24,675 bases of DNA from positions 1 to 24,675 of the IMG/VR virus record IMGVR_UViG_3300010151_000153; one strand, given 5' to 3'. This DNA comes from a virus. The notes beneath the pieces are model-generated. The model was given only the letters and a program-made list of their open reading frames with translations. It searched no databases and was not told where the DNA came from. The translations under genes were made by a program, and so were the position numbers. This document shows, one piece after another, positions 1-24,675 of this stretch. Position 1 is the first letter of the stretch, and each line of letters begins with the position of its first letter.

Positions 1-3000
1 CAGTAAAACAACATGTTCCTAATGGTAAACAATTATTATTATAATAATCACAATCGATTCCACTTTCATCTAATATAGTATTACAATTAACAGAACATAA
101 ATCAGATGTTGCATATAGTAAATCATCACCCTTCCATCTATTTCTGTTATGAATTAAACAATCGTTTCCATTACAATAAGGAATTTTACAACTTGATAAT
201 ATATTTGAACAGTAATATTGACTACTTTCATAATTACAAGTATCACATTCACAACAAGGACCCGAAGGTAATTCTTCTGAGCAAACATCGGCGGTTGGGA
301 GGTCAGTTGAACCCATATCACTTGTAGGATATCCAAATACCCTAGTACAACCAGGAGTAAAATATCCAATATATACCATACCTCTTCCACTATCACCCCA
401 TTCTGTTACATCACCAGGGTCTTCATCATTTGGTCCAACATCTTCTCCGTTAGTTGAAGACTCAACATATCTTAAAGCAAGTCTTATATTTTGATTCGAT
501 TCGACAATCTTAGATGTTAATGTTCCTGTACTTGATTCCCAAGCAAATGCATTATTTGCATCGTAATACCCACCAAGAGGTCTCGATGAAGTCCAATAAA
601 CACCATTAAGATTACTTCCACCATAATCAGCATACGAAGATGCAATTTCTGGATGTTGACACATTTGTTTCCATAAGAAACCAAATTCATCTTTAGACAT
701 AACATAAAGATTTATTCTATCATCTCTTACAGAATTTAACGGATGATTAAAACCACCATCTAAATCTATTGTGGTAAATATACCACCCTCTAACCCACCA
801 TATGCTGGGTCAAGTCCAGAACTGCAATTAGAGTCTCTGAGGCTTGCGACATTATACGGACCGTTTAAATCTTCACCACATTCACCCTCATTACATTCTT
901 GTAGAGGCCAACCATGTGTATTGAAATATCCATCCGAAGGACGAGTTATACCAATTCTGGATGGTGTGAAATCTGTGTTGTCATTTAATGCCCATCTATT
1001 TTCATCACAATCATTCAAATCAATATAAATATGCCAACCTATTTGTTCATTTAGTTTTGATGGACAACTGTCACCACACGGGTCTGTGTTTGGGCAGTCT
1101 GCCTCACAACAACTTTCTTTTGGATAATGTATACATGTCCCACAAGACGGTTGTAATTCGGCACAATCAGTATCGGTTAAATTTTCTACACATGCACAAT
1201 TATCACAACAGCATGCTCCTGTTTCGGGGTTTACTATTTCGCAAGGGTCAGTACTACATTCCGAACCAGCACCTTGGAAGTTTCCTCCCAACGCTACACA
1301 TGCTGCCGAATTGCTAACATCTACACAGGTGTTATCTGACATACAACAAGCACCCTGAAGAAAATCACAACAATCTATATCTGCATCATTGCACGTTGTT
1401 CCATTTCCTCTGTAGTCACCACCTGCTGATATACAACTATCTTCAGATTCTTCAAAGCATATTCCAAATCTACAACAAACACCAAGAGAAACACACTCAA
1501 CACAAGTATCAGAAGGAGGAGAACCCTCGCATTCTGTATTTGGGTCACAATCTCCTCCTCCTCCTGTCCATGTTCCACTTACTGCACTACAATCATCTTG
1601 TGTATAATATGGATGTGCTTGTCCCTCCGCACAACAACAACCCAGAAGTGGAGTTTCTACGCAAGCACTTCCACATTCAGCAATGCAAGAGGTATTTTCA
1701 CATATATTTTGCATGCAAGCACCGTTATGAAAACTATCCCCATCCCAATTATAACAAGAAAGTTCACAAAGTTCATTTGGCGGCTGACCGGATTCGCATG
1801 TCCATTTTTGAGTTTCTCTGCAATCACCAACACCGGCAGCAGTTAACTGATTACCAACATCGGTAATATTTTCCCCCCAAACACAAACTCTTGCGCCGCC
1901 TACACAACCACAACCATTCCAAAGTACTGGTAGTGCATCACAACAGTGAACAGGTTCTTCATCAATAGGAGAATGCCATACACCATCATGTTTTGTGCAA
2001 CCCTCATCAGATATTTCTTGACATTGTAATGGTTCACCGTAACAGCAAGCACTACTAGGACATATTGGTTCGCATCCACTATTAGCACATGTTACATTAA
2101 AACCTTTGAAGTCTCCATCTATATCAATACAATCTTGTTGAAATAATTCTTGACAATCATAACACACTTGACCATCTGATAGTGAGTCTGTACAACAAGC
2201 ACCCAAAAGTTGTATAGGGTCATCACACGGATAATCATTACATTGAACTGCGGAACAATCTACTCCAAAAAAGAAATATCCACCATATAAATCACAGTCT
2301 GTTGCGTTGCTTTGTATACAAGTATGCATAGTGCAACATGCGCCTTCTGTATCATCTGAACAAAAAGTATTTTCGCATTTTGTTTTCAGGTGAAATTCTC
2401 CACCAAGTTCAAGACAATCTCCTCTTGTTGTATAATCAGCACATCCATTATCTGCCTTGTCATAACAACATGCACCCATTTCATCCGAAAGACCTTCAAA
2501 AGTAATTCCATAATTTATACCAGGATTTAATGCTAACCATTTATGTGTTCCGTTTGATGTTGTATCTGTAATCGCCTGCTCTGTATAAACAAAATTAAAT
2601 ATATCAATACCATCACTAAACTCTACAGAATCTGGGTCTGGGAATATAGCAGTTATATAATCTTCACTATAACTATCAGCAGTGTCGAAGATATCAACAG
2701 GTCTTAAACCTTCATCCAATAAACCGTGTGATGCCGCATTATACAAAATTAATGTAAAGTTTTGTGATGTTGAAAATGTTTGTCCGTTATAACTAGTATA
2801 ATTATCATATGGAAGTTTAATGTAGCCGGTGTTTGCACCACAATAAATCTTCTGCATATTACCACCAGTCATATGAAGTTGAACATCTACCCTATCTGTT
2901 TGAGACCAACCAACAGGATAATCATAAGTTCCTGATTGGTTTCCGTGTCTCTTAACAAATTCTCTATGGTCTATAAGTTTTGTTGATAAAGATTCATGAT

Positions 3001-3739
3001 ACGCCGATGCACCATCAGAACCTTTCGGCCAACTACTCACACTCCAATATGTTCCACTCGCACCAGCAGCATGAGAAGATGTTCCAGATGTCATATAAAT
3101 TAATTCACCTGTTCTTCCCATATCAATCGCATCTTCAGCGTTTGCTTTGATTCCTCCAAGCATAATTGTACCGTTTGGTAAAACTTGAAGTTGAACATCA
3201 TTATATGATTCTATAACTTTGAAATATGCAGTTGCACCATCGAGAGAATATATTAAAGGAACACCATCACCAACCGAACGAATCATAATAGGTCCTGTTG
3301 TTCCTGTATTTCCTGTAGCACCCAATATTCTTGCTAGTACTCCGTTATCAACTCCTGGATGACTTCCAGGAATTTCAAAGGTTCTTCCTCTTTGTGTTCC
3401 ATCAGAAGATGTTGATTCTTCTCCCAAAAATAAAACCAAAGACTCTTGTGGGCTTCCACAGATACCTGCATAACGATAATATCTAAAATCTCCTGTAGCG
3501 ACACCAAATACAGGCGCACCTTTATCATCAAAATGTTGAAAAATTATTGGTGCGGTAGGTCCACAATAACCAAAACCCACACCAGTTGAACCTAGAGGTC
3601 CAATAATTCCTGTGATTCCTTTTGGTCCTGTTGCTCCTGTCGGTCCTGTTGGACCTGTTCCACCAATATCACCAACCCTTGGGTCAGAAGGATTTCCGGT
3701 AGGACCGAATACTAAAATGTGTGAACTATTGTTTATCAT
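1..3739 (-). CDS. Giant cysteine-rich mosaic tail/fibre protein with collagen-like N-terminus (partial, runs off left edge)
   Basis: I read this frame by hand from the ATG at 3739 (AAGG ribosome site upstream) without a stop to base 1, at least 1246 codons. Residues 26-53 are ten Gly-X-Y triplets (GPTG type). Residues about 60-420 are a non-cysteine structural region related to the protein encoded just upstream at 3757-4914. From about 421 to 885 comes a dense cysteine region with repeated GACC units ending in GG-x-F/Y-x-G-x-x-C. Residues about 900-1090 look like an Lcl_C/DUF1566-type domain (KDEFGFLWKQ, then YWTSS, AFAW and RLALRYV). Cysteine-rich sequence resumes from about 1132 to the edge. 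I count about 94 cysteines. By position, last in the fibre group, I infer a host-contacting adhesin or fibre component. The function is not established; the C-terminus is unseen. Confidence 0.85.
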   Translation of the reverse strand, partial: MINNSSHILVFGPTGNPSDPRVGDIGGTGPTGPTGATGPKGITGIIGPLGSTGVGFGYCGPTAPIIFQHFDDKGAPVFGVATGDFRYYRYAGICGSPQESLVLFLGEESTSSDGTQRGRTFEIPGSHPGVDNGVLARILGATGNTGTTGPIMIRSVGDGVPLIYSLDGATAYFKVIESYNDVQLQVLPNGTIMLGGIKANAEDAIDMGRTGELIYMTSGTSSHAAGASGTYWSVSSWPKGSDGASAYHESLSTKLIDHREFVKRHGNQSGTYDYPVGWSQTDRVDVQLHMTGGNMQKIYCGANTGYIKLPYDNYTSYNGQTFSTSQNFTLILYNAASHGLLDEGLRPVDIFDTADSYSEDYITAIFPDPDSVEFSDGIDIFNFVYTEQAITDTTSNGTHKWLALNPGINYGITFEGLSDEMGACCYDKADNGCADYTTRGDCLELGGEFHLKTKCENTFCSDDTEGACCTMHTCIQSNATDCDLYGGYFFFGVDCSAVQCNDYPCDDPIQLLGACCTDSLSDGQVCYDCQELFQQDCIDIDGDFKGFNVTCANSGCEPICPSSACCYGEPLQCQEISDEGCTKHDGVWHSPIDEEPVHCCDALPVLWNGCGCVGGARVCVWGENITDVGNQLTAAGVGDCRETQKWTCESGQPPNELCELSCYNWDGDSFHNGACMQNICENTSCIAECGSACVETPLLGCCCAEGQAHPYYTQDDCSAVSGTWTGGGGDCDPNTECEGSPPSDTCVECVSLGVCCRFGICFEESEDSCISAGGDYRGNGTTCNDADIDCCDFLQGACCMSDNTCVDVSNSAACVALGGNFQGAGSECSTDPCEIVNPETGACCCDNCACVENLTDTDCAELQPSCGTCIHYPKESCCEADCPNTDPCGDSCPSKLNEQIGWHIYIDLNDCDENRWALNDNTDFTPSRIGITRPSDGYFNTHGWPLQECNEGECGEDLNGPYNVASLRDSNCSSGLDPAYGGLEGGIFTTIDLDGGFNHPLNSVRDDRINLYVMSKDEFGFLWKQMCQHPEIASSYADYGGSNLNGVYWTSSRPLGGYYDANNAFAWESSTGTLTSKIVESNQNIRLALRYVESSTNGEDVGPNDEDPGDVTEWGDSGRGMVYIGYFTPGCTRVFGYPTSDMGSTDLPTADVCSEELPSGPCCECDTCNYESSQYYCSNILSSCKIPYCNGNDCLIHNRNRWKGDDLLYATSDLCSVNCNTILDESGIDCDYYNNNCLPLGTCCFT

Positions 3740-3756
3740 TAACCAACCTTATATTG

Positions 3757-4914
3757 CTACCAAGAAAAAGGATTATTATCTTTTTCTGTTCTTACATACA
3801 TCCCATACCACTCTATTTTTTCTGTTATAGTATCGGTATTTCCTAAAGTAATAAATTGTACAATATCTATATCGTTACTTAGAGTAGGACTCAAAGAATA
3901 TCCAAATTTCCAATTTTTAGGAAATACCTCATAATAAGGATAAGACACCGTTTCTTCGTCTCTATTTATTCTTTCTCCTGTTGTTTTTCCATCAATAACA
4001 ATCAAAGTAAAACCCGAAGAACTAAACGGTGTAAACTTCTCTAAATATTCATCTGGATTATTAGAAGATTCAGACGAATCTAAAAATCTAACAAATGGTT
4101 TTTGTTCATCTGTTGGTGGCCCGCCCCACCACAATTCATAATCTTTATTTGGGTCTACTACAAAAACCGTACCAGATAATCTGCCATAATCTTCTGCTCT
4201 TGCCGCTTCCAACGATAATGCATCTATTGGATTTATTTTATAAATAAAAGTATTATATTCTTCATCAAATTGCCAAGGTGAAATCCTAGACGAAACTTCA
4301 TTATATTTTCGGATTGTTGCTTTCAGTGCATGTGTTGGTCCACCATAATAATGTGTAAGGGTGGCACCAGACAATCCCGTAGTACCCGCACTATTTGCTT
4401 TTGCATATACCAAACCACCTGTTGGACCGTGTGCTGTTACTGCATCAAATGTCGTATATCTAACTCGTATTTTATCTTCGTTATCTTCGATACGAAGACC
4501 GTTTCCGCCTGTAATACTTTTTAAATATAAAACTCCATTAACACTATCTTTCCATAAAACACCTGCTGTTGCATAACCTGTATTTTCGCCTCTGAGATAA
4601 TATATTGAATCACCTGTCGGTCCTCGATAATGCCCAGCATCTGCTGTTACTGCTTGACCACCCACATCGTTGTATTGTAATATAAGATGGTGTGCATTTG
4701 GACCTGTACTACTATAAGTAACACCGATAACAACAGGACCCGTTTCACCTGTCGGTCCTGTATTTCCTAGAGACCCTGCGGGTCCTGTTGGTCCACTAGA
4801 ACCAGTAGCAGCATAACCAGATGTTCCGCCAGAATTCCATTCAAAAGGATGAACCCAAGGGTCTCCTGTGGGTCCCTGTGTTCCAATGTTGAATGGATGA
4901 GAACTAGAAGACAT
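3757..4914 (-). CDS. Collagen-like virion structural protein, probable fibre component
   Basis: 385 residues, ATG at 4914 preceded by TAGGAT. Residues 38-59 form eight Gly-X-Y triplets (GPTGPAG, GPTGETG), and an isolated GPTG lies near residue 14. Such short collagen-like stretches in phage fibre genes are known to form trimeric stalks. The rest is rich in beta-type sequence and ends EWYGMYV...NPFSW. Its C-terminal third (FSSSGFTLIV, then SNDIDIVQFITL) aligns by eye with the pre-cysteine region of the downstream giant protein (FSTSQNFTLIL, then SDGIDIFNFVYT), so the two look like paralogues. It sits 11 bases after the collar-domain gene, in the fibre group. A tail-fibre or adhesin role is inferred from context; I do not recognise a catalytic or named receptor-binding domain. 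Confidence 0.8.
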   Translation of the reverse strand: MSSSSHPFNIGTQGPTGDPWVHPFEWNSGGTSGYAATGSSGPTGPAGSLGNTGPTGETGPVVIGVTYSSTGPNAHHLILQYNDVGGQAVTADAGHYRGPTGDSIYYLRGENTGYATAGVLWKDSVNGVLYLKSITGGNGLRIEDNEDKIRVRYTTFDAVTAHGPTGGLVYAKANSAGTTGLSGATLTHYYGGPTHALKATIRKYNEVSSRISPWQFDEEYNTFIYKINPIDALSLEAARAEDYGRLSGTVFVVDPNKDYELWWGGPPTDEQKPFVRFLDSSESSNNPDEYLEKFTPFSSSGFTLIVIDGKTTGERINRDEETVSYPYYEVFPKNWKFGYSLSPTLSNDIDIVQFITLGNTDTITEKIEWYGMYVRTEKDNNPFSW

Positions 4915-6430: not shown

Positions 6431-9400
6431 CTAATTTTCTATTACCGGTGATGGAAACGCATTGTTAAAATCTGCATCTGCTTCGTAATGAACCGTAACA
6501 GTATCTAACGGAACTGCACCACCTAAAATCTTTATTTCTATTGCATTCGGTGTATCCGAACTATATTTAACATTTATAGAATTTGCTCTTGTTGACCTTC
6601 CTCTTCCATCATACCCCTTTGTTCCTGCAACATTTCTTAGGTCGTTTGATGCATCGCGGTTGAATGCTTCATCCGCAATACCTGTTGGAGACCACAACGA
6701 ACATGTTGGATTTTTTCTCATTCTTTCTGGGAATTCATATACATTTAAATATGAGTTGGGAACAACAAAATTTATACCACTTGTATCTGGATGTGTTCTA
6801 GTAGACATCGTGTTAGAACCAGGATGTATTCCATAAACATAACTATGTTGATAATATCTTTGACATTTTCTCAATTCTTCGTTTGGATTAACTAAATTGA
6901 ATGCTGTTGGAACATTTCCTCGTTCTAATTTTATTTGCGATAAATGTAAATCTTTCATAAAATTAATATGATTATTTGTATCTTGTGTATAAAATGCAAG
7001 AGAAGCAAAATGGTCACCAGAAACACCAAGAGATATATTATGATTTGATGCCGATGCACCGGCTGCACTAGATAATTCAGGAACAAAGAACGAGAAGTTA
7101 TATGGCTCCCAATTAGTAGTCAAACTAAAATCAGAAATTGGTGTTATAATTTCACTCGCCGTAACACCCAACCCCGATGATGATGCATATAAACCACCCG
7201 AAGTTGCACCAGGCACTGCACCTGTTGTTCCTGTGAGGTTTTGTATAAATGCAACATGACAATCTCCTGTTGCATGATAATTGTTTGGATTAGCACCTTT
7301 AGCATAAAAAGAAACAGTCATAACTTCACCTGCAAAAGAAGTACAATCTTCAATTCTTTGTTCTACTCTACACCATTCATTATTCATAGTACCACCGCTA
7401 AAAGTAATACCACCACGAATTATTGAATAATAATCTGGATGATTTGGAATTAAAGTTTCTTTCTTATTAAAACTTCCTCTTGCAATTTTATAATCAAATG
7501 AACGAGATGTACCACCAACACTACCTGTAGTTGGATTTATGCTGCCCGTTCCTGTTTGAGATACTCGTAACCATCTATCTGCAAAATAAGCGTTTGCGGT
7601 TCCTCCCCACGCATGGGTAGTTCCTGTTCCTCTTTGCCAGATTCCAAAATCAGGATTTATCAATTCGTTTTTATTTACTTGAAGTGCGTTATCATATGTA
7701 CTTCCTGTTCCCCCAGTTGGTCCTAGAATATTAAGACTTGAACCTATTCTGTGTGAACGAGATTTAAATTGACCACCACCACCTCTACGAGACTCCGCAC
7801 CCGAAATCACAGGTGCATCTATATTCAACACAACTCTTGTTGGTGAAATCGCATCTAATACTTTGACGGATAAAGCGTTTCCGGGAGAAGTTCTTAAATT
7901 TCCGTTTTCGTGTAAATAGTGTGTGCCGGGTTCCGATAAAACACCAGAACTTAATGTTACCGTTCCTGATGTAGCAACTCTAAAATAATTATTAGTTGCA
8001 TCTACATAAGTTATCATTCCTAAAACATGAGATTTCTCTAAAACTGTGGAATCTGCTAAATTTAAACCGGATGTCTGTTGTGGGTCTACACAAACAATAT
8101 TTCCTTCTACAAAAGTTTGTGAGGATGAATCATAAGAACGAACAAACGAAGTTAATTCTCCACCACTTGCACCACCTGCACCACCTGCACCACCACCGGT
8201 GCAACCTGTACTAGAATTATACTGACCTCGATAGGGAAGAATAATACCAGAAGTTTTTCCTGTTGAAACTAAAACAGGTCTATTAATATAACCTGCAACC
8301 CTTGGTTCTTGGAATTGTATTTTTCCTCTATCAGCACTATTGTATATCGAAAGAAAGTATACATTGCCGGGTACTAGTCCCTCTGTATGATTTTCTACAA
8401 GAGCCGTATTCCATTCGGAAACTGTTCCTGTAATTTCTCCCATATATGTTATATCAAATGTGTCGTTGTTTACAACTCTTGATATAACACCAATTACTTC
8501 CGCAGCACGGATACCATCTCCATGTAATTCGTTCTCTCCTGCGGCAGAGGCATATGTATATCCCTGAGTCGTTCCGCTATATCGAATAACATTACCAAAA
8601 GCAAATCCGTGATTATTTTTTACAATTCTTTGTTTGTTTGCACCTTTCACGATGTTTACATAACCGTCTGATTGGAACTCTACGAGTGCCCCTGCTGTAT
8701 TTCCTATAACAAGAGCGTTGGGTGCTGTTTGGTCATTAAAACCGCCTGTACCTGTCCACGGGTCTCCTGTAGCACCAACCCTGTCCCCTCTACCATCAAC
8801 TTCAAGATAGTTGAACCCATCAAGAGTAGGTCCAAAGTACATCCGTACAACACCACCTTTTACCCCTCCTTGTTCAGAATTCCAATCATGTTTATTTTTT
8901 ATATCTGCACTGCAACCTGTATATCCGTATGGTCCGTGTGGATAATCATCACCGGTTGAACCTTCTGAAGTTCTTCCCGTAAATACTTCTTGGTGATTTA
9001 ATCTACCCTCTAACCACAATGCTTCTTTTGTTCGCCATTTTCCTTCTTTGTGTATAAGATATGGTCTATCAAAAACAAAAGAATTATAAAAATCTCCACC
9101 ATCGTCAATTGGTTTATCAATTGATGCTGGATTTGGTCCTGTTGCACTACCACCAATAATCAGCCCAGAATAATCACATCCAACCGCAGGAGATTCGTTT
9201 GTGTTTAGAATAATAAGATTTTCATCAAAATTATGTCCAACAGTTACCCCACCACTTATAGCATCTACACCAATAAGATTACCGGCAACTCTGAGTTGTC
9301 CACCAATACTAAGATTATTACAGAAAGTAGAATGTGTTCTTAAAACATTACCAGAAAATGCAACTGCAAGTGTACCACCAGTACCCAATGCCATCATCAT

Positions 9401-9727
9401 TCCATCACCGGGTGTTGCACCATATACATGAAGTTGATTTAACTTTTCGATAATTTCGGTGTTTGTTTTCACTCTCCATGATTCAAAAGTATCATTTAGT
9501 TCTACATCACCAATAACATAATCTTTACCATAAACACTTAAAGTATATCCACGAGCCCCACTATACTGGTCATAAGAATGGACACCATATTCACTGGGAT
9601 AAATACTTCCAGTACCACCAGGCAATGCCCATGAAGCATGCGTAGTACCACCTATACCTGCTAGTCGATGACCACCATAAGCATATGTGTATCCTGTACA
9701 ACCTCCGAAATATCCTCTTCCTGCCAT
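6431..9727 (-). CDS. Large tail fibre/baseplate appendage protein
   Basis: 1098 residues, the longest complete gene here, ATG at 9727 with AGGAT upstream. Residues 78-102 (NDTFESWRVKTNTEIIEKLN) match the attachment-type segment seen near the start of many T4-like marine fibre proteins. Residues about 360-500 and 526-637 are two copies of a beta domain (GFAFGNVIR, EVIGVIS, NVYFLS, NRPVLVS). Residues about 510-525 are a Gly/Ala/Ser linker. From about 690, NPDFGIWQRG...ADRWLRVS resembles the carbohydrate-binding-like jelly-roll module of phage fibres, and LRKCQRYYQHSY near 950 is a common fibre motif. It probably corresponds in role to the proteins encoded at the gp10-gp12 position of T4. The exact place in the virion is inferred. 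Confidence 0.85.
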   Translation of the reverse strand: MAGRGYFGGCTGYTYAYGGHRLAGIGGTTHASWALPGGTGSIYPSEYGVHSYDQYSGARGYTLSVYGKDYVIGDVELNDTFESWRVKTNTEIIEKLNQLHVYGATPGDGMMMALGTGGTLAVAFSGNVLRTHSTFCNNLSIGGQLRVAGNLIGVDAISGGVTVGHNFDENLIILNTNESPAVGCDYSGLIIGGSATGPNPASIDKPIDDGGDFYNSFVFDRPYLIHKEGKWRTKEALWLEGRLNHQEVFTGRTSEGSTGDDYPHGPYGYTGCSADIKNKHDWNSEQGGVKGGVVRMYFGPTLDGFNYLEVDGRGDRVGATGDPWTGTGGFNDQTAPNALVIGNTAGALVEFQSDGYVNIVKGANKQRIVKNNHGFAFGNVIRYSGTTQGYTYASAAGENELHGDGIRAAEVIGVISRVVNNDTFDITYMGEITGTVSEWNTALVENHTEGLVPGNVYFLSIYNSADRGKIQFQEPRVAGYINRPVLVSTGKTSGIILPYRGQYNSSTGCTGGGAGGAGGASGGELTSFVRSYDSSSQTFVEGNIVCVDPQQTSGLNLADSTVLEKSHVLGMITYVDATNNYFRVATSGTVTLSSGVLSEPGTHYLHENGNLRTSPGNALSVKVLDAISPTRVVLNIDAPVISGAESRRGGGGQFKSRSHRIGSSLNILGPTGGTGSTYDNALQVNKNELINPDFGIWQRGTGTTHAWGGTANAYFADRWLRVSQTGTGSINPTTGSVGGTSRSFDYKIARGSFNKKETLIPNHPDYYSIIRGGITFSGGTMNNEWCRVEQRIEDCTSFAGEVMTVSFYAKGANPNNYHATGDCHVAFIQNLTGTTGAVPGATSGGLYASSSGLGVTASEIITPISDFSLTTNWEPYNFSFFVPELSSAAGASASNHNISLGVSGDHFASLAFYTQDTNNHINFMKDLHLSQIKLERGNVPTAFNLVNPNEELRKCQRYYQHSYVYGIHPGSNTMSTRTHPDTSGINFVVPNSYLNVYEFPERMRKNPTCSLWSPTGIADEAFNRDASNDLRNVAGTKGYDGRGRSTRANSINVKYSSDTPNAIEIKILGGAVPLDTVTVHYEADADFNNAFPSPVIEN
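8161..8196. repeat. Short in-frame tandem repeat, about four 9-base units
   Basis: Plus-strand unit CACCACCTG: a first copy with one change (CACCACTTG), two exact copies, then a partial fourth. Read on the minus strand it encodes the Gly-Gly-Ala linker (residues about 510-525) between two beta domains of the 1098-residue fibre. The period is a multiple of three, so copy-number change would lengthen or shorten the linker without breaking the frame. Confidence 0.8.
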
Positions 9728-16897: not shown

Positions 16898-18223
16898 TCA
16901 TACACACTCGAAATTATCACAAGTTGTATCATCTCCACCATAATATCCACCATCTACCAAACACTGTGAATAATCATAATCATTATAACACGAACCACTT
17001 ATACAACATACACCTGTACTACAATTACATTGAACCTCCTCAAAACATGTAATATCTTCACACTTACTATCAAATCCATACCACTCGCCATCACAAATAT
17101 CAGGAAACTGTGTCTCTGCACAATGACCATCTGTAAAACAACACGCACCTGTTGGTGGACACTCTTCGCACTGGGCACAACAAGTCCCAGAACCACTGCA
17201 TCCAAAAGACCCATTTGTACAAACACAACATTGACCATCTGGACAAGGCTCATAGTCTTCCGGATTGTTACAGTTCATGGGATGACAACAAGTGTCGCCC
17301 CCCCAAGGACAATTTACACACTGACCCTCTATACAACAAAGAGGTTCACAATCAGAATTTTCCTCACATTCATCACCACCACCACCGCCGCTATCATCAC
17401 ATTCTTCACATACTCCATCATTACAACACATATCATCTTCACAATCAGTATGTAAACAACAGTCGCCGCAACATTCCCAACAAGGACAACTACAATCCCA
17501 AATTCCGCCTAAAAAATCACAATGACAGTTATTTATATTCCAACAAGAATACCAACCAAAATGACACGCACACTCTTGGTCGGGTGTTTCACACTCAATT
17601 TCATCAGGCCAAACACCAGGATAAAAGTCTCCACCCACCTCACCACAACTTTCATCATTTGTTCTAGAAGCACGTTTATAACAAAGTTGACTAAGACAGC
17701 ATGTTGGATAATAACAACAAGTCCCCATTACGGGAGGTTCTGGGTAATCGCACAATCCGTCTACACATTGTTGACCACCACCTTGAAATGAACCCTCTGC
17801 ACCACAGCATTCATGACAAGGCAATATAACACAACCACCATCATTAGGTAAACAACACGCACCATATCCAGTACATACACAATCAAGTCCTTCTGGTGGG
17901 TCTCCCAATCCTCTAAAACCCCCCACTATTGTTTCACATGCAGTATCATCTCCCTGATATATTCCGTTTTCGTTAGCACATTCTTCTTGTAAATAAGTGT
18001 TTATACATGTTACATCATCCTCGTTTTCACAAAAACAACACGCACCCCTAACATGAAAACAATTAACAAAAGGGTCTGCACATAAACTATCTGTGCCTTG
18101 ATATGTACCACCAATACCACCATCTTCAACGCTTCTTTCACATAACTTTTGAGTTACATTATCTCTACATGTTTCATTGGGTAAACAACACGCTCCCCTA
18201 TCACAACAACACGGTCTCTTCAT
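16898..18223 (-). CDS. Cysteine-rich GACC-repeat protein of unknown function
   Basis: 441 residues with about 81 cysteines (18%), ATG at 18223 with AGGGGAT upstream. It starts MKRPCCCDRGACCLPNETC with no hydrophobic signal peptide. Repeat units follow GACC-(L/F)-x-C-x-C-x-GG-x-(Y/F)-x-G-x-(T/S)-x-C, for example GACCLPN, GTYQGTDSLC; GACCFTDGHC, GFDSKC; GVCCISGSCYN, GYYGGDDTTC. The middle (about 230-350) is denser, with CxCxC and CC pairs and a poly-Gly stretch (about 288-294). The protein is acidic. The gene is in line with, and evenly spaced from, the hub genes on both sides, so it is probably co-transcribed with them and a virion part. Disulfide-stapled or metal-binding folding is possible. 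I do not recognise a named domain. Confidence 0.9.
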   Translation of the reverse strand: MKRPCCCDRGACCLPNETCRDNVTQKLCERSVEDGGIGGTYQGTDSLCADPFVNCFHVRGACCFCENEDDVTCINTYLQEECANENGIYQGDDTACETIVGGFRGLGDPPEGLDCVCTGYGACCLPNDGGCVILPCHECCGAEGSFQGGGQQCVDGLCDYPEPPVMGTCCYYPTCCLSQLCYKRASRTNDESCGEVGGDFYPGVWPDEIECETPDQECACHFGWYSCWNINNCHCDFLGGIWDCSCPCWECCGDCCLHTDCEDDMCCNDGVCEECDDSGGGGGDECEENSDCEPLCCIEGQCVNCPWGGDTCCHPMNCNNPEDYEPCPDGQCCVCTNGSFGCSGSGTCCAQCEECPPTGACCFTDGHCAETQFPDICDGEWYGFDSKCEDITCFEEVQCNCSTGVCCISGSCYNDYDYSQCLVDGGYYGGDDTTCDNFECV

Positions 18224-21583: not shown

Positions 21584-21611
21584 TTGTGTTATCCTTAATT
21601 TTAATGAATTC

Positions 21612-21619
21612 TATAAATA
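21612..21619 (+). promoter_or_regulatory. Candidate T4-type late promoter ahead of gp4
   Basis: TATAAATA, the exact -10 consensus of T4 late promoters, lies in the only divergent spacer of the window (21584-21639), 20 bases before the gp4 ATG. A start about 6 bases downstream would begin the transcript near the GGAG at 21625. The same octamer also occurs by chance inside genes in this AT-rich DNA (for example 4239 and 24064), so position rather than sequence carries the claim. The minus strand shows only weaker versions (two mismatches) here, so the promoter of the leftward block is unclear. Confidence 0.45.
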
Positions 21620-21639
21620 TATATGGAGAAAATAATTTT

Positions 21640-22074
21640 ATGGCGTACAAATCAAAGTATAATCCCAACAACGCATCAAAATACATAGGAAATGTAAATA
21701 ATATTGTATGTCGCTCATTGTGGGAAAGACGGGTATGTAAATATTTAGACGAAAACAAGAACATATTGCGGTGGGGAAGCGAAGAAATATCCATTCCGTA
21801 TTATTCAAACGTAGACAAAAAGTGGCATAAGTATTATCCAGATTTCCTTATTGAAAAAATAAACAAAAATAATACAATAGAAACCCTAATAATAGAAGTA
21901 AAACCAAAAAAACAGACAAAACCACCAAAGAAACCAAAAAGAAAAACAAAGAACTATATCAAAGAATGTATGACATACGAAATAAATTCAGCAAAATGGA
22001 AGGCTGCAACAAAATATTGTAAGGAAAACAAATGGAAATTTATTATTATAACAGAAGACGATATTCTGTTATAA
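21640..22074 (+). CDS. gp4: Head completion protein gp4 (nuclease-like fold)
   Basis: 144 residues from the ATG at 21640, chosen because GGAG lies 11 bases upstream and the homologous start is MAYKSKYNPNNASKYIG; an in-frame start further left would add 18 residues unlike the family. T4 gp4 (also called gp50/4) is needed to finish DNA-filled heads before tails attach. Matching signature: NIVCRSLWERRVCKYLD (21-37), WGSEEISIPYYSNVDKK (45-61), YYPDFLIE (65-72), IIEVKPKK (84-91), then WKAATKYCKENKWKF (120-134). E29, D68 and E86-V-K88 form a PD-(D/E)XK/TnsA-like arrangement. The lysine/proline-rich run at 87-104 is strongly basic. It opens the rightward block and is the only head-related gene in the window. 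Confidence 0.92.
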   Translation: MAYKSKYNPNNASKYIGNVNNIVCRSLWERRVCKYLDENKNILRWGSEEISIPYYSNVDKKWHKYYPDFLIEKINKNNTIETLIIEVKPKKQTKPPKKPKRKTKNYIKECMTYEINSAKWKAATKYCKENKWKFIIITEDDILL

Positions 22075-22088
22075 AGCATACATAGTAT

Positions 22089-22598
22089 ATGAGCCTAGGA
22101 ATTGACCAATTTGGAACATGGCTAGATACAGGTTTTCATAAACCCAGTCTATACAGTGTGTCTATTACATCCACCCCCTTAACAGAAAAAAACCTCATGG
22201 CGGAAACTGTTACCCTTCCGGGAAGAAGTCTTGCTACATTACCAAGAAGAACTTTTGGTCCTCAAAGAGAAGTTGCATACGAAAGACTATTTTCTAGTGA
22301 TTTGGATATAGGATTTGTGTTTAAAGAGGATGAACCGATAAGAAGAAAACTTGAAGAATGGATGGATTTAATCATTGACCCCAACAACAATCAACTAAAT
22401 CCAGAATACTTTGATTATGTTGGAACAATGACTATAAAATTAGAAAGTTCGTTCTCACCTCTTTTGCCATCCTTTGAAATGGAAGTATTGGAATTGTATC
22501 CAAAAACCATAAATCCAATACAACTAGGATATAACATGAATAATGATTATGTGAGACAAACTGTATCATTCGCTTTCCGGGACTACATTATCAAATAA
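22089..22598 (+). CDS. gp19: Tail tube protein, gp19-like
   Basis: 169 residues (T4 gp19 is 163), ATG at 22089. No convincing ribosome site: the 14 bases between the gp4 stop and this ATG are AT-rich without AGGA, so coupling to gp4 is possible. T4-type tube landmarks: AETVTLPGRSLATLPRRTFG (38-57) with the following VAYERLFSSDLDIGFVF, RKLEEWMDLI (86-95), and the end ELYPKTINPIQLGYNMNNDY then VSFAFRDYI, which matches the gp19 ending (LWPTNVGELQLDW, FEVTLALDYW). gp54/gp48-type proteins share this fold, and marine T4-like phages can have several tube paralogues, so it could be a specialised initiator ring rather than the main tube protein. Confidence 0.78.
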   Translation: MSLGIDQFGTWLDTGFHKPSLYSVSITSTPLTEKNLMAETVTLPGRSLATLPRRTFGPQREVAYERLFSSDLDIGFVFKEDEPIRRKLEEWMDLIIDPNNNQLNPEYFDYVGTMTIKLESSFSPLLPSFEMEVLELYPKTINPIQLGYNMNNDYVRQTVSFAFRDYIIK

Positions 22599-22611
22599 AA
22601 AGGAATATATA

Positions 22612-23334
22612 ATGTCAAAAATAAACGAATTATTAAAATCAGAAATACCCACATACACAACCACTCTTCCAACAGATGGAAAAGAAATCAAATTTAGACC
22701 ATTCAGAGTAAAAGAAGAAAAAATCTTATTGATGGCAGTGGAAGAAGGTACTGAACTTGGTATGATTCAAGCAATGATTAATATAGTAGAAAGTTGTTGT
22801 GATAATATAAAGAATGCAGGAAATCTTGTTTCTGTAGACCTTGAATGGTTGTTTCTTCAACTGAGAATCAAGTCTATCGGTGAAACGGTAGAACCCCTTA
22901 TTACTTGTCCGTTTACTGATGAAAAATTTCAAGCAGAAATAAATTTATTAGATGTAGAAGTTGTAAAAAAAGAAGATTTATCAAACAAAATTAAAATTAC
23001 AGACAACATCGGAATAACTCTAAAACACCCAACAATGAACACCATATTCAAAAACGATTTTCCTGATTTTTCTGATATGGGCATTGAATCTGCACTAAAA
23101 ATAATAGCAATATCAATAGAAGAAATATGGACTGATTCAGAAATATTCAAGAATGATGAATTAACACTAGAAGATAAATTAGAGTTTATAGAAGGAATGT
23201 TACCAGAAAAATTTGAATCGTTGGTTGAATTTTTTGAAAACTCACCAACCCTTCAATATGAACTTAAATATAAAACAAAGGATGGAGAAGAAAGGGAATT
23301 GGTGATGAAAGGAATAGCGGATTTTTTCGGCTAA
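22612..23334 (+). CDS. gp26: Baseplate hub assembly protein gp26-like (T4_baseplate family), zero-frame product
   Basis: 240 residues, ATG at 22612 with AAAGGA upstream (T4 gp26 is 208). Family motifs: ITF-type opening as YTTTLPTDGKEIKFRPFRVK (15-34), EEKILLMAVEEG (35-46), DLEWLFLQLRIKSIGE (76-91), ITCPF (98-102), then KIKITDNIGITLKHPTM. The acidic, helical second half ends LVMKGIADFFG just before TAA. In T4, gp26 helps assemble the central hub and is not a major part of the finished virion. The last codons overlap a slippery heptamer at 23322-23328 leading to a longer product (separate entry). The neighbouring probable tape-measure gene fits a chaperone-like role. Confidence 0.87.
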   Translation: MSKINELLKSEIPTYTTTLPTDGKEIKFRPFRVKEEKILLMAVEEGTELGMIQAMINIVESCCDNIKNAGNLVSVDLEWLFLQLRIKSIGETVEPLITCPFTDEKFQAEINLLDVEVVKKEDLSNKIKITDNIGITLKHPTMNTIFKNDFPDFSDMGIESALKIIAISIEEIWTDSEIFKNDELTLEDKLEFIEGMLPEKFESLVEFFENSPTLQYELKYKTKDGEERELVMKGIADFFG

Positions 23335-23510
23335 TCCTTTCCCACACATCGTTATATTCTCATTATGTTTATAACTTCAATCTGAAACAACATCATGGTT
23401 GGGGAATAGAAGAATTAGAGAATATGATACCTTGGGAAAGGGAGATATATATGTTACAGATACAAAAATGGATTACAGAGGAAAACCAAAAAACACAAAG
23501 TAGGTTATAA
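22612..23510 (+). CDS. Predicted -1 frameshift fusion of the gp26-like protein with a 60-residue gp51-like extension
   Basis: A second frame continues past the gp26 stop. Reading gp26 to TTC at 23326-23328 and slipping back one base gives RLILSHTSLYSHYVYNFNLK, QHHGWGIEELENMIPWEREI, YMLQIQKWITEENQKTQSRL and a TAA at 23508-23510: 239 + 60 = 299 residues. The extension has the conserved pattern (NFxLxQHH, ELENMxPWEREIY) I know from small proteins or C-termini beside gp26/gp51 in T4-like marine phages. The -1 frame is open only from 23274, and no ATG, GTG or TTG occurs in it before the ATG inside ELENM, so independent translation of the conserved part is unlikely. Alternative: a one-base error in the T6 run, in which case the true gene is a simple 300-residue fusion. 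Confidence 0.7.
23322..23328 (+). other. Slippery heptamer T TTT TTC for -1 frameshifting
   Basis: In the gp26 frame the codons are GAT TTT TTC GGC TAA. T TTT TTC fits the X XXY YYZ rule exactly: after slipping, both tRNAs re-pair on TTT TTT. The zero-frame stop follows only 3 bases after the heptamer, and conserved coding sequence in the -1 frame begins immediately after it. This matches the known logic of tail-assembly chaperone frameshifts (lambda G/GT type). Confidence 0.7.
23335..23442 (+). other. Possible long-range stem downstream of the slippery site
   Basis: TCCTTTCCCA (23335-23344) can pair with TGGGAAAGGG (23433-23442): nine Watson-Crick pairs plus one G-U, closing an 88-base loop. 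The Watson-Crick arm starts 7 bases after the heptamer, within the usual 5-9 base spacing for frameshift stimulators. The 3' arm also encodes the conserved WERE residues, so coding constraint alone could produce it. Confidence 0.4.
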
Positions 23511-23512
23511 TT

Positions 23513-24675
23513 ATGGCAAAGAAACAAACAAACAACGATGATATACTATCAAAAGTATCTAAAGATATTTCTATTGATACTGCCAATGAAGTTGCAAAAA
23601 TAATCAATCAAGAAGATAAAAAAAATACAACCGAAAATAATAAAGAAAAAACAGAAAAGAAAAATACAGAAAAAGAAAAAGAACAAAGAGAAAACAAAGA
23701 AAATAAAACACAAAAGAAACGAGATGAAAAAAGAGATAAACTTCTCAAAGAAATAAAGAATCAAACTTCTGGTGGTGCATCATCCAACAAAAGTGTTTTT
23801 GGAACAAGCAGATTAGGGGCATTTGCAGATACTCTTTCTGATGAAATAAAAGACTCAACAATAAAACAAACAAAATCTATACTTCAAACATTTAATCCTT
23901 TAGAGCATGTTAAGAGTATGTGGGGTATGCTTCCGGGTTCTGGTGCCATAGGTAAAGCATTTGGAGCAGCAACCAGCGATTTTAAAAAAGAAGAAAAAGA
24001 GGATACCAAAATAAATGAAGATGGTTTAGAGGTATCAGAAGAAAACTCTGAAAAACTTACCAATATAAATACCACATTTTCAGACGGAATTGAAAAAATT
24101 TACGGTGTTTTAGAAACAATAAAAGAATCTTTTATTAGAACTAAAGAAACAACATCCGATAAAAAATTATTAGCAAAAGAAAATGCAAACGAAAATAAAA
24201 AATTGCTAAGAGGAATAGGGAGAGGTGGTGTTGTTGCAGGTGGTGTTGCAGGTGGTGCAGGTGGTGATAAAAAATCATTTGGCGAACAGGCTATGGACCT
24301 TGGTAAAGATGCAGCAAAACTAACACTTATACAGAAAATGGGTGGTTGGGCTTTAAAGTTAGGTAAAGGATTGTTAGGAGGTGTAGTTGGTATGCTTGGT
24401 TTTAAAGGACTTGCATCCACACTTAAAGGAGGAGGGGCAGCAGCAAAAGCAACAGCGAGTGCAGCAACAAAGGGACCAGGAATAATTTCAAGAACCCTTG
24501 GTGGTGTAAAAAATTTAATTTTTGGTAAAAGTTTTAAGGGAGGACAATTTCTTCCCGGTGGTGGTCGTGCCGTGGCAGGAGGTCAACGTGTTGGTGGTTT
24601 AGTAAATTGGATAAAGAACGCGGCGGGTGTTAGCAGAAGAACTGCGGATACTGCAAAAATATTAGATAAAACTTC
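23513..24675 (+). CDS. Probable tape measure/gp29-like tail protein (partial, runs off right edge)
   Basis: I read this frame from the ATG at 23513 (AGG at 23502-23504 as weak ribosome site, 2 bases after the extension's stop) to the window end, 387 codons without a stop. Residues 1-85 are extremely charged and Lys/Glu/Asn-rich, likely coiled coil or disordered. Then come helical amphipathic stretches (DGIEKIYGVLETIKESF) and, from about 233, Gly/Ala-rich and hydrophobic segments (VVAGGVAGGAGG, LGKGLLGGVVGMLGFKGL). I recognise no catalytic domain in the visible part. Long helical composition and its position directly after the frameshifted assembly gene are the usual setting of a tape measure; in T4 the corresponding protein is gp29. 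A peptidase or lysozyme domain in the unseen C-terminus cannot be excluded. Confidence 0.6.
   Translation, partial: MAKKQTNNDDILSKVSKDISIDTANEVAKIINQEDKKNTTENNKEKTEKKNTEKEKEQRENKENKTQKKRDEKRDKLLKEIKNQTSGGASSNKSVFGTSRLGAFADTLSDEIKDSTIKQTKSILQTFNPLEHVKSMWGMLPGSGAIGKAFGAATSDFKKEEKEDTKINEDGLEVSEENSEKLTNINTTFSDGIEKIYGVLETIKESFIRTKETTSDKKLLAKENANENKKLLRGIGRGGVVAGGVAGGAGGDKKSFGEQAMDLGKDAAKLTLIQKMGGWALKLGKGLLGGVVGMLGFKGLASTLKGGGAAAKATASAATKGPGIISRTLGGVKNLIFGKSFKGGQFLPGGGRAVAGGQRVGGLVNWIKNAAGVSRRTADTAKILDKT

Follow-up and report, generated by a model that had tools for sequence, protein, structure and literature searches.

The gp26-like gene at positions 22612–23334 of the window, by which we mean the whole 24,675-nucleotide stretch of DNA analyzed here, from an uncultivated marine bacteriophage related to T4 (IMG/VR record IMGVR_UViG_3300010151_000153), is very likely a tail assembly chaperone (TAC) gene in which programmed −1 ribosomal frameshifting would yield a short product (TAC-N) and a long product (TAC-NC). 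The initial annotation had read the locus as frameshifted and had linked gp26 and gp51 to the tail chaperones of lambda-type phages, and the comparative evidence supports both proposals. It had also held this family to be undescribed, a belief that proved wrong, since citing passages in two later papers name Vladimirov, Gautam and Davidson 2022 (Virology 566:9-15) as the source on TAC genes in T4-like phages. The PRFect paper (PMC10274946) cites that work for T4-like phages in which the short and the fused long form each have a gene of their own, and the Adele paper (PMC12846349) cites it for poly-T −1 slippery sequences in T4-like TAC-N genes. Literature searches gave no other source describing the gp26–gp51 pairing itself. 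As such, the mechanism has already been reported for T4-like phages, and the window, judged from its sequence, very probably represents a well-supported new example from a divergent, uncultivated lineage.

Overlapping reading frames at the gp26 3′ end

The short ORF on the plus strand (22612–23334) encodes 240 amino acids and ends with GGA ATA GCG GAT TTT TTC GGC TAA. The heptamer T_TTT_TTC within this sequence (23322–23328) lies in X_XXY_YYZ phase and is followed by GGC and then by the stop codon TAA (23332–23334). The zero frame matches PF12322 over profile positions 2–218 of 219 (E=4.5e-50; 170.8 bits against a cut-off of 24.5), and a profile search likewise assigns it to phrog_150 (E=8.9e-53). 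Directly after the heptamer, the −1 frame on the same strand runs from 23328 (CGG) through 60 codons to a stop at 23508–23510. The extension encoded there (TAC-C), RLILSHTSLYSHYVYNFNLKQHHGWGIEELENMIPWEREIYMLQIQKWITEENQKTQSRL, matches phrog_634, ‘baseplate hub assembly catalyst’ (gp51), over profile positions 58–114 of 121 (E=2.6e-21).

The −1 frame is open from 23274, and its first ATG, at 23424, corresponds to residue 33 of the 60; no ATG, GTG or TTG lies in this frame upstream of that ATG, which leaves the first half of the extension free of start codons. Frameshifted TAC genes are recognized by a slippery heptamer at the 3′ end together with an overlapping −1 frame that lacks its own start, and this is the arrangement found in the window. 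The initial annotation had described a T4-type gp26-like gene with a slippery heptamer three bases before its stop, followed in the −1 frame by 60 gp51-like residues with no usable start, and each of these points was confirmed by the coordinates and family assignments given above.

Separate gp26 and gp51 genes in T4 and RB69

In Atkins et al. 2016 (PMC5009743), T4 stands as the exception among long-tailed phages, whose G-T chaperones otherwise arise by frameshifting. In both T4 and RB69, gp26 and gp51 match PF12322 and are therefore paralogues. Whereas gp26 of these phages consists of the PF12322 domain alone, gp51 carries the PF12322 domain and the phrog_634 extension in one frame, and the extension of T4 gp51 aligns with the window sequence ...DFFRLILSHTSLYSHYVYNFNLKQHHGWGIEELENMIPWERE. 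The Phe-Phe pair of gene 26 is written TTC TTT in T4 and RB69; with the fusion encoded as a separate gene, no slippery site is left. These two phages thus serve as a natural control, in which the extension is in frame in gp51 and the heptamer is absent.

By homology with the domains of the window, T4 gp26 corresponds to TAC-N and T4 gp51 to a TAC-N-like domain plus the extension. These two obscure proteins of hub assembly resemble a short and a long chaperone, each encoded by a gene of its own. T4 and RB69 differ from the window in having two separate paralogous genes without a slippery heptamer. Frameshifting is reportedly conserved in several T4-like groups, and the genes concerned in T4 are said to be 26 and 51.

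Conservation of the slip site among relatives

By tblastn, gp26 was found in 611 phage records and the extension in 513, many of them near-duplicates. The reading of junctions covered annotated isolates together with 80 contigs from uncultivated viruses; 79 of these contigs were usable (the locus in L095 leaves its contig before the gp26 stop). Because the contigs were picked by a peptide pattern at the N-terminus, the set of loci is independent of the heptamer. The counted set comprised 96 separate-frame loci including the window, with the Ackermannviridae phage 1.244.A set aside, and 68 loci remained after removal of those with at least 70% identity. The gp26 of the window shares at most about 43% identity with the relatives found, except for one contig, IMGVR_UViG_3300025133_001071 (L002), in which gp26 is 100% identical and the same T6 run is present. 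A single-sequence search of viral contigs returned only this contig, and an alignment query reached the rest.

An in-frame T_TTT_TTN lies near the 3′ end of gp26 in all separate-frame loci (96/96, 1.244.A set aside), with TTC as the last codon of the heptamer in 75, TTT in 16, TTA in 4 and TTG in 1, and ACP17 and YB07 retain it although their GC content is higher. The homopolymer ranges from T6 to T8. The distance from the end of the heptamer to the last base of the stop codon is usually 3–9 nt and extends to about 27–30 nt in Mosig, L071 and RHph_I1_18. Among the de-replicated relatives, T_TTT_TT occurs at the slip site in 68/68, as compared with 4/59 of the Phe-Phe pairs that these genes contain elsewhere. 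The codon that precedes Phe-Phe at the slip site is always NNT, whether it encodes S, D, N, A or H, while the chances expected from each gene's own codon usage are 0.62 for NNT and 0.68 for TTT. With the loci taken as independent, the joint synonymous-codon probability is about 1e-30 (log10 −30), a figure that overstates the case because the loci are related; the within-gene Phe-Phe control is independent of it. In RHph_I1_18 (L021:3193-3202), the sequence T_TTT_TTA_AAC comprises two slippery heptamers that overlap, both in phase, about 30 nt ahead of the stop codon's last base.

Conservation of the extension starts directly at the slip point. No ATG is found in its first 15 codons in 49/68 relatives, and no ATG, GTG or TTG in 29/68. 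The extension could alternatively be expressed as a separate gene 51, by reinitiation or by initiation at an internal ATG, in which case the two frames would not be fused. Public annotations do place gp51 at an internal ATG (Syn19_013, Mosig_00136), and in several phages the gp26 stop overlaps a start codon, as TAATG or TGATG, or is closely followed by one, as seen among KVP40, nt-1, YB07, RHph_Y68 and S-SRM01. We nevertheless regard this explanation as very unlikely, since the first ATG in the window lies beyond the conserved NFxLxQHH block, conservation sets in at the slip point itself, and gp51 of T4 is itself a fused protein. Moreover, synonymous sites of the heptamer and of the NNT codon before it stay fixed even where an overlapping ATG is available, as KVP40, nt-1, D490, YB07 and RHph_Y68 combine the overlap with a T6 heptamer. 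In phages with an overlapping start, a free extension may be made as well.

Relatives in which the extension has its own start and lacks a slippery sequence, named in the initial annotation as the contrary case, were sought. Among the phages read, only the Ackermannviridae Vibrio phage 1.244.A (L019:2447-3339) has the overlap without a canonical heptamer; its gp26/extension pair is joined by TAATG, with ACTTTTTC in the heptamer's place, and reinitiation or another shift site may operate there. The other overlap lineages keep the heptamer. The frameshift signal is present in nearly all of the T4-like phages covered here that fall outside the T4 group.

On the practical side, several public phage records annotate gp51 from an internal ATG (L003:4259-4396, L004:3558-3692 and L017:3268-3390), or omit it, as do the records of ACG-2014b and ACG-2014j (L005, L020). 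The joined frameshift product is annotated in none of the public records read here.

Sequence elements flanking the slip site

A GAGGG-like (Shine–Dalgarno-like) sequence is positioned 8–9 nt upstream of the heptamer in the relatives. Glu at the SD-like codon is written GAG in 27/34 cases, compared with 25% elsewhere (27:7 vs 340:1043, P=6e-11), and pairing with the anti-SD reaches −4.94 kcal/mol in the relatives as opposed to −3.73 kcal/mol in synonymous resampling (P=3e-6). At the corresponding position, the window has a weak SD-like element, AAAGGA (23308–23313, plus strand), which ends 8 nt before the heptamer and has an anti-SD energy of only −2.6, against a mean of −4.9 for the relatives.

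On the 3′ side, folding of the 60 nt after the slip site is more stable than that of sequences resampled to be synonymous in the −1 frame (mean z −1.76, P=8e-14), an excess that is absent from the next 60 nt (z −0.15). Many relatives have a clear hairpin beginning a few bases past the heptamer. For downstream RNA structure, the family mean z is −1.5 to −1.8 and the window has a z of about −1.7 to −1.9; the region at 23334–23413 of the window has modest predicted structure, without a strong hairpin beginning close to the slip site. Given the weak AAAGGA element and the lack of a strong nearby hairpin, the frameshift in the window may be less efficient or may rely on longer-range structure.

These elements also bear on whether the shift takes place during translation. 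Slippage of RNA polymerase on the T6 run, with one T inserted, would give the same fused product, and the run is indeed homopolymeric in all loci (T6 to T8), such that transcripts with an inserted base would fuse the same two frames. Six Ts are, however, short for transcriptional slippage, and the SD-like element and downstream hairpins of the family are stimulators of ribosomal frameshifting, which makes the polymerase an exceedingly unlikely source of the shift. Although homopolymer runs are error-prone, there is next to no chance that a sequencing or assembly indel has split one continuous gene or that the gene has decayed, as the same run and frame relation recur in the separately listed contig L002 and in the other loci of the 96, including the isolates Syn19, KVP40 and nt-1. 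For the family as a whole, this explanation is already refuted, and an error specific to the assembly of the window contig is probably not at issue because this contig of identical gp26 and all the divergent relatives share the T6 run.

Proposed mechanism and comparison with known chaperones

In the programmed −1 ribosomal frameshift that we favor, the majority of ribosomes would end after FFG to produce the 240-aa gp26-like TAC-N, while a minority would slip back one base on U_UUU_UUC and read ...ADFF-RLILSHTSLY..., giving a TAC-NC of about 299 aa with a gp51-like C-terminal domain. By analogy with gpG/gpGT of lambda, the probable tape measure protein encoded directly downstream would be coated by many copies of TAC-N and few of TAC-NC, and subunits of the tail tube or baseplate would be recruited by the extension, thereby coupling the tape measure to their assembly. 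The sequence and homology of the two frames, the conservation of the signal and the fusion of both domains in one frame in T4 gp51 are established here; slippage itself, its rate, the ratio of the two products and their chaperone action we infer.

As is proposed for the window, phage lambda derives its short and long forms (gpG/gpGT) from a single gene that undergoes −1 slippage at its 3′ end and is directly followed by the tape measure gene. The slippery sequence of gpG/gpGT differs from T_TTT_TTC, the SD-like element and hairpin were measured in the gp26 family only, and the likeness drawn here is one of arrangement. In comparison with the T4-like TAC-N/TAC-NC genes of Vladimirov 2022, as represented in the papers that cite them, the window has the same gene family (gp26/gp51) and poly-T signals, and its lineage is uncultivated and divergent. 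The TAC locus of Vandenendeviridae/Andersonviridae (phage Adele, PMC12846349) also has a conserved −1 poly-T slip next to the tape measure gene, but its motif is given as GTTTTT and the virus families are other ones.

Rather doubtful, at this stage, is a broader scheme in which the T4 superfamily outside the T4 group would use a three-part signal (SD-like GAGGG, U6N and a hairpin), and in which the TAATG/TGATG lineages would make TAC-N, TAC-NC and a free TAC-C as an intermediate to the two-gene state of T4, reached by duplication and in-frame fusion.

Structural model and genomic context

The AlphaFold2 model of the window gp26 is of high confidence (pLDDT 92.9). Among 350,542 PDB chains, Foldseek ranked 2ob9, the HK97 tail assembly chaperone, first against the gp26 N-terminal domain, with a weak score (E=0.36, prob 0.80). 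VIA-align also placed 2ob9 at rank 1, with 87/107 residues aligned at an rmsd of 4.2 and a Z of 7.8, where the tool notes that a Z below 8 can reflect a common arrangement. The predicted model is thus suggestive of a likeness to the HK97 TAC fold. Searching PDB sequences with the gp26 profile and with T4 gp51 returned no solved relative, and an NCBIfam search gave no match.

The genes follow the order tube, chaperone and large downstream gene, all on the plus strand. Upstream of the chaperone gene, a tail-tube-like protein of the gp19/gp54 type (22089–22598) matches phrog_45, ‘tail tube’ (E=2.2e-23). Downstream, the next gene begins with an ATG at 23513, leaving a 2-nt gap after the extension, and runs off the window (23513–24675). 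For its large, K/E- and Gly-rich product, complete as 728 aa in the contig with identical gp26, PHROG, Pfam and NCBIfam offer no convincing match. Similar lengths are seen in the KVP40 protein in the same place, with 656 aa, and in the RHph_I1_18 equivalent, which has 632 aa and matches tape measure profiles. From its position, length and composition, the downstream ORF is a probable tape measure protein gene. In cyanophages, the gene after the extension (L005:3688-6033, L003:4453-7705, L010:2680-4560) matches PHROGs labelled endolysin/peptidase (phrog_790, phrog_23178), and that of P-HM1 has a tape-measure match; these genes possibly encode tape measure proteins with a peptidase domain.

Elsewhere in the window, a head-completion gp4-type gene (21586–22074, plus strand) matches phrog_218, and its core matches a Tn7 TnsA-like endonuclease domain. 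Two predicted proteins rich in Cys and in GACC...C repeats, neither with a Pfam match, are encoded amid the baseplate and tail genes (16898–18223 and 2–3739, both minus strand), and the latter additionally has collagen-like GPTGPTG repeats. On the same strand, a predicted structural protein (3757–4914) has collagen-like GPTGP repeats near its N-terminus, and a very long putative fibre protein (6431–9727) is encoded near the baseplate wedge genes.
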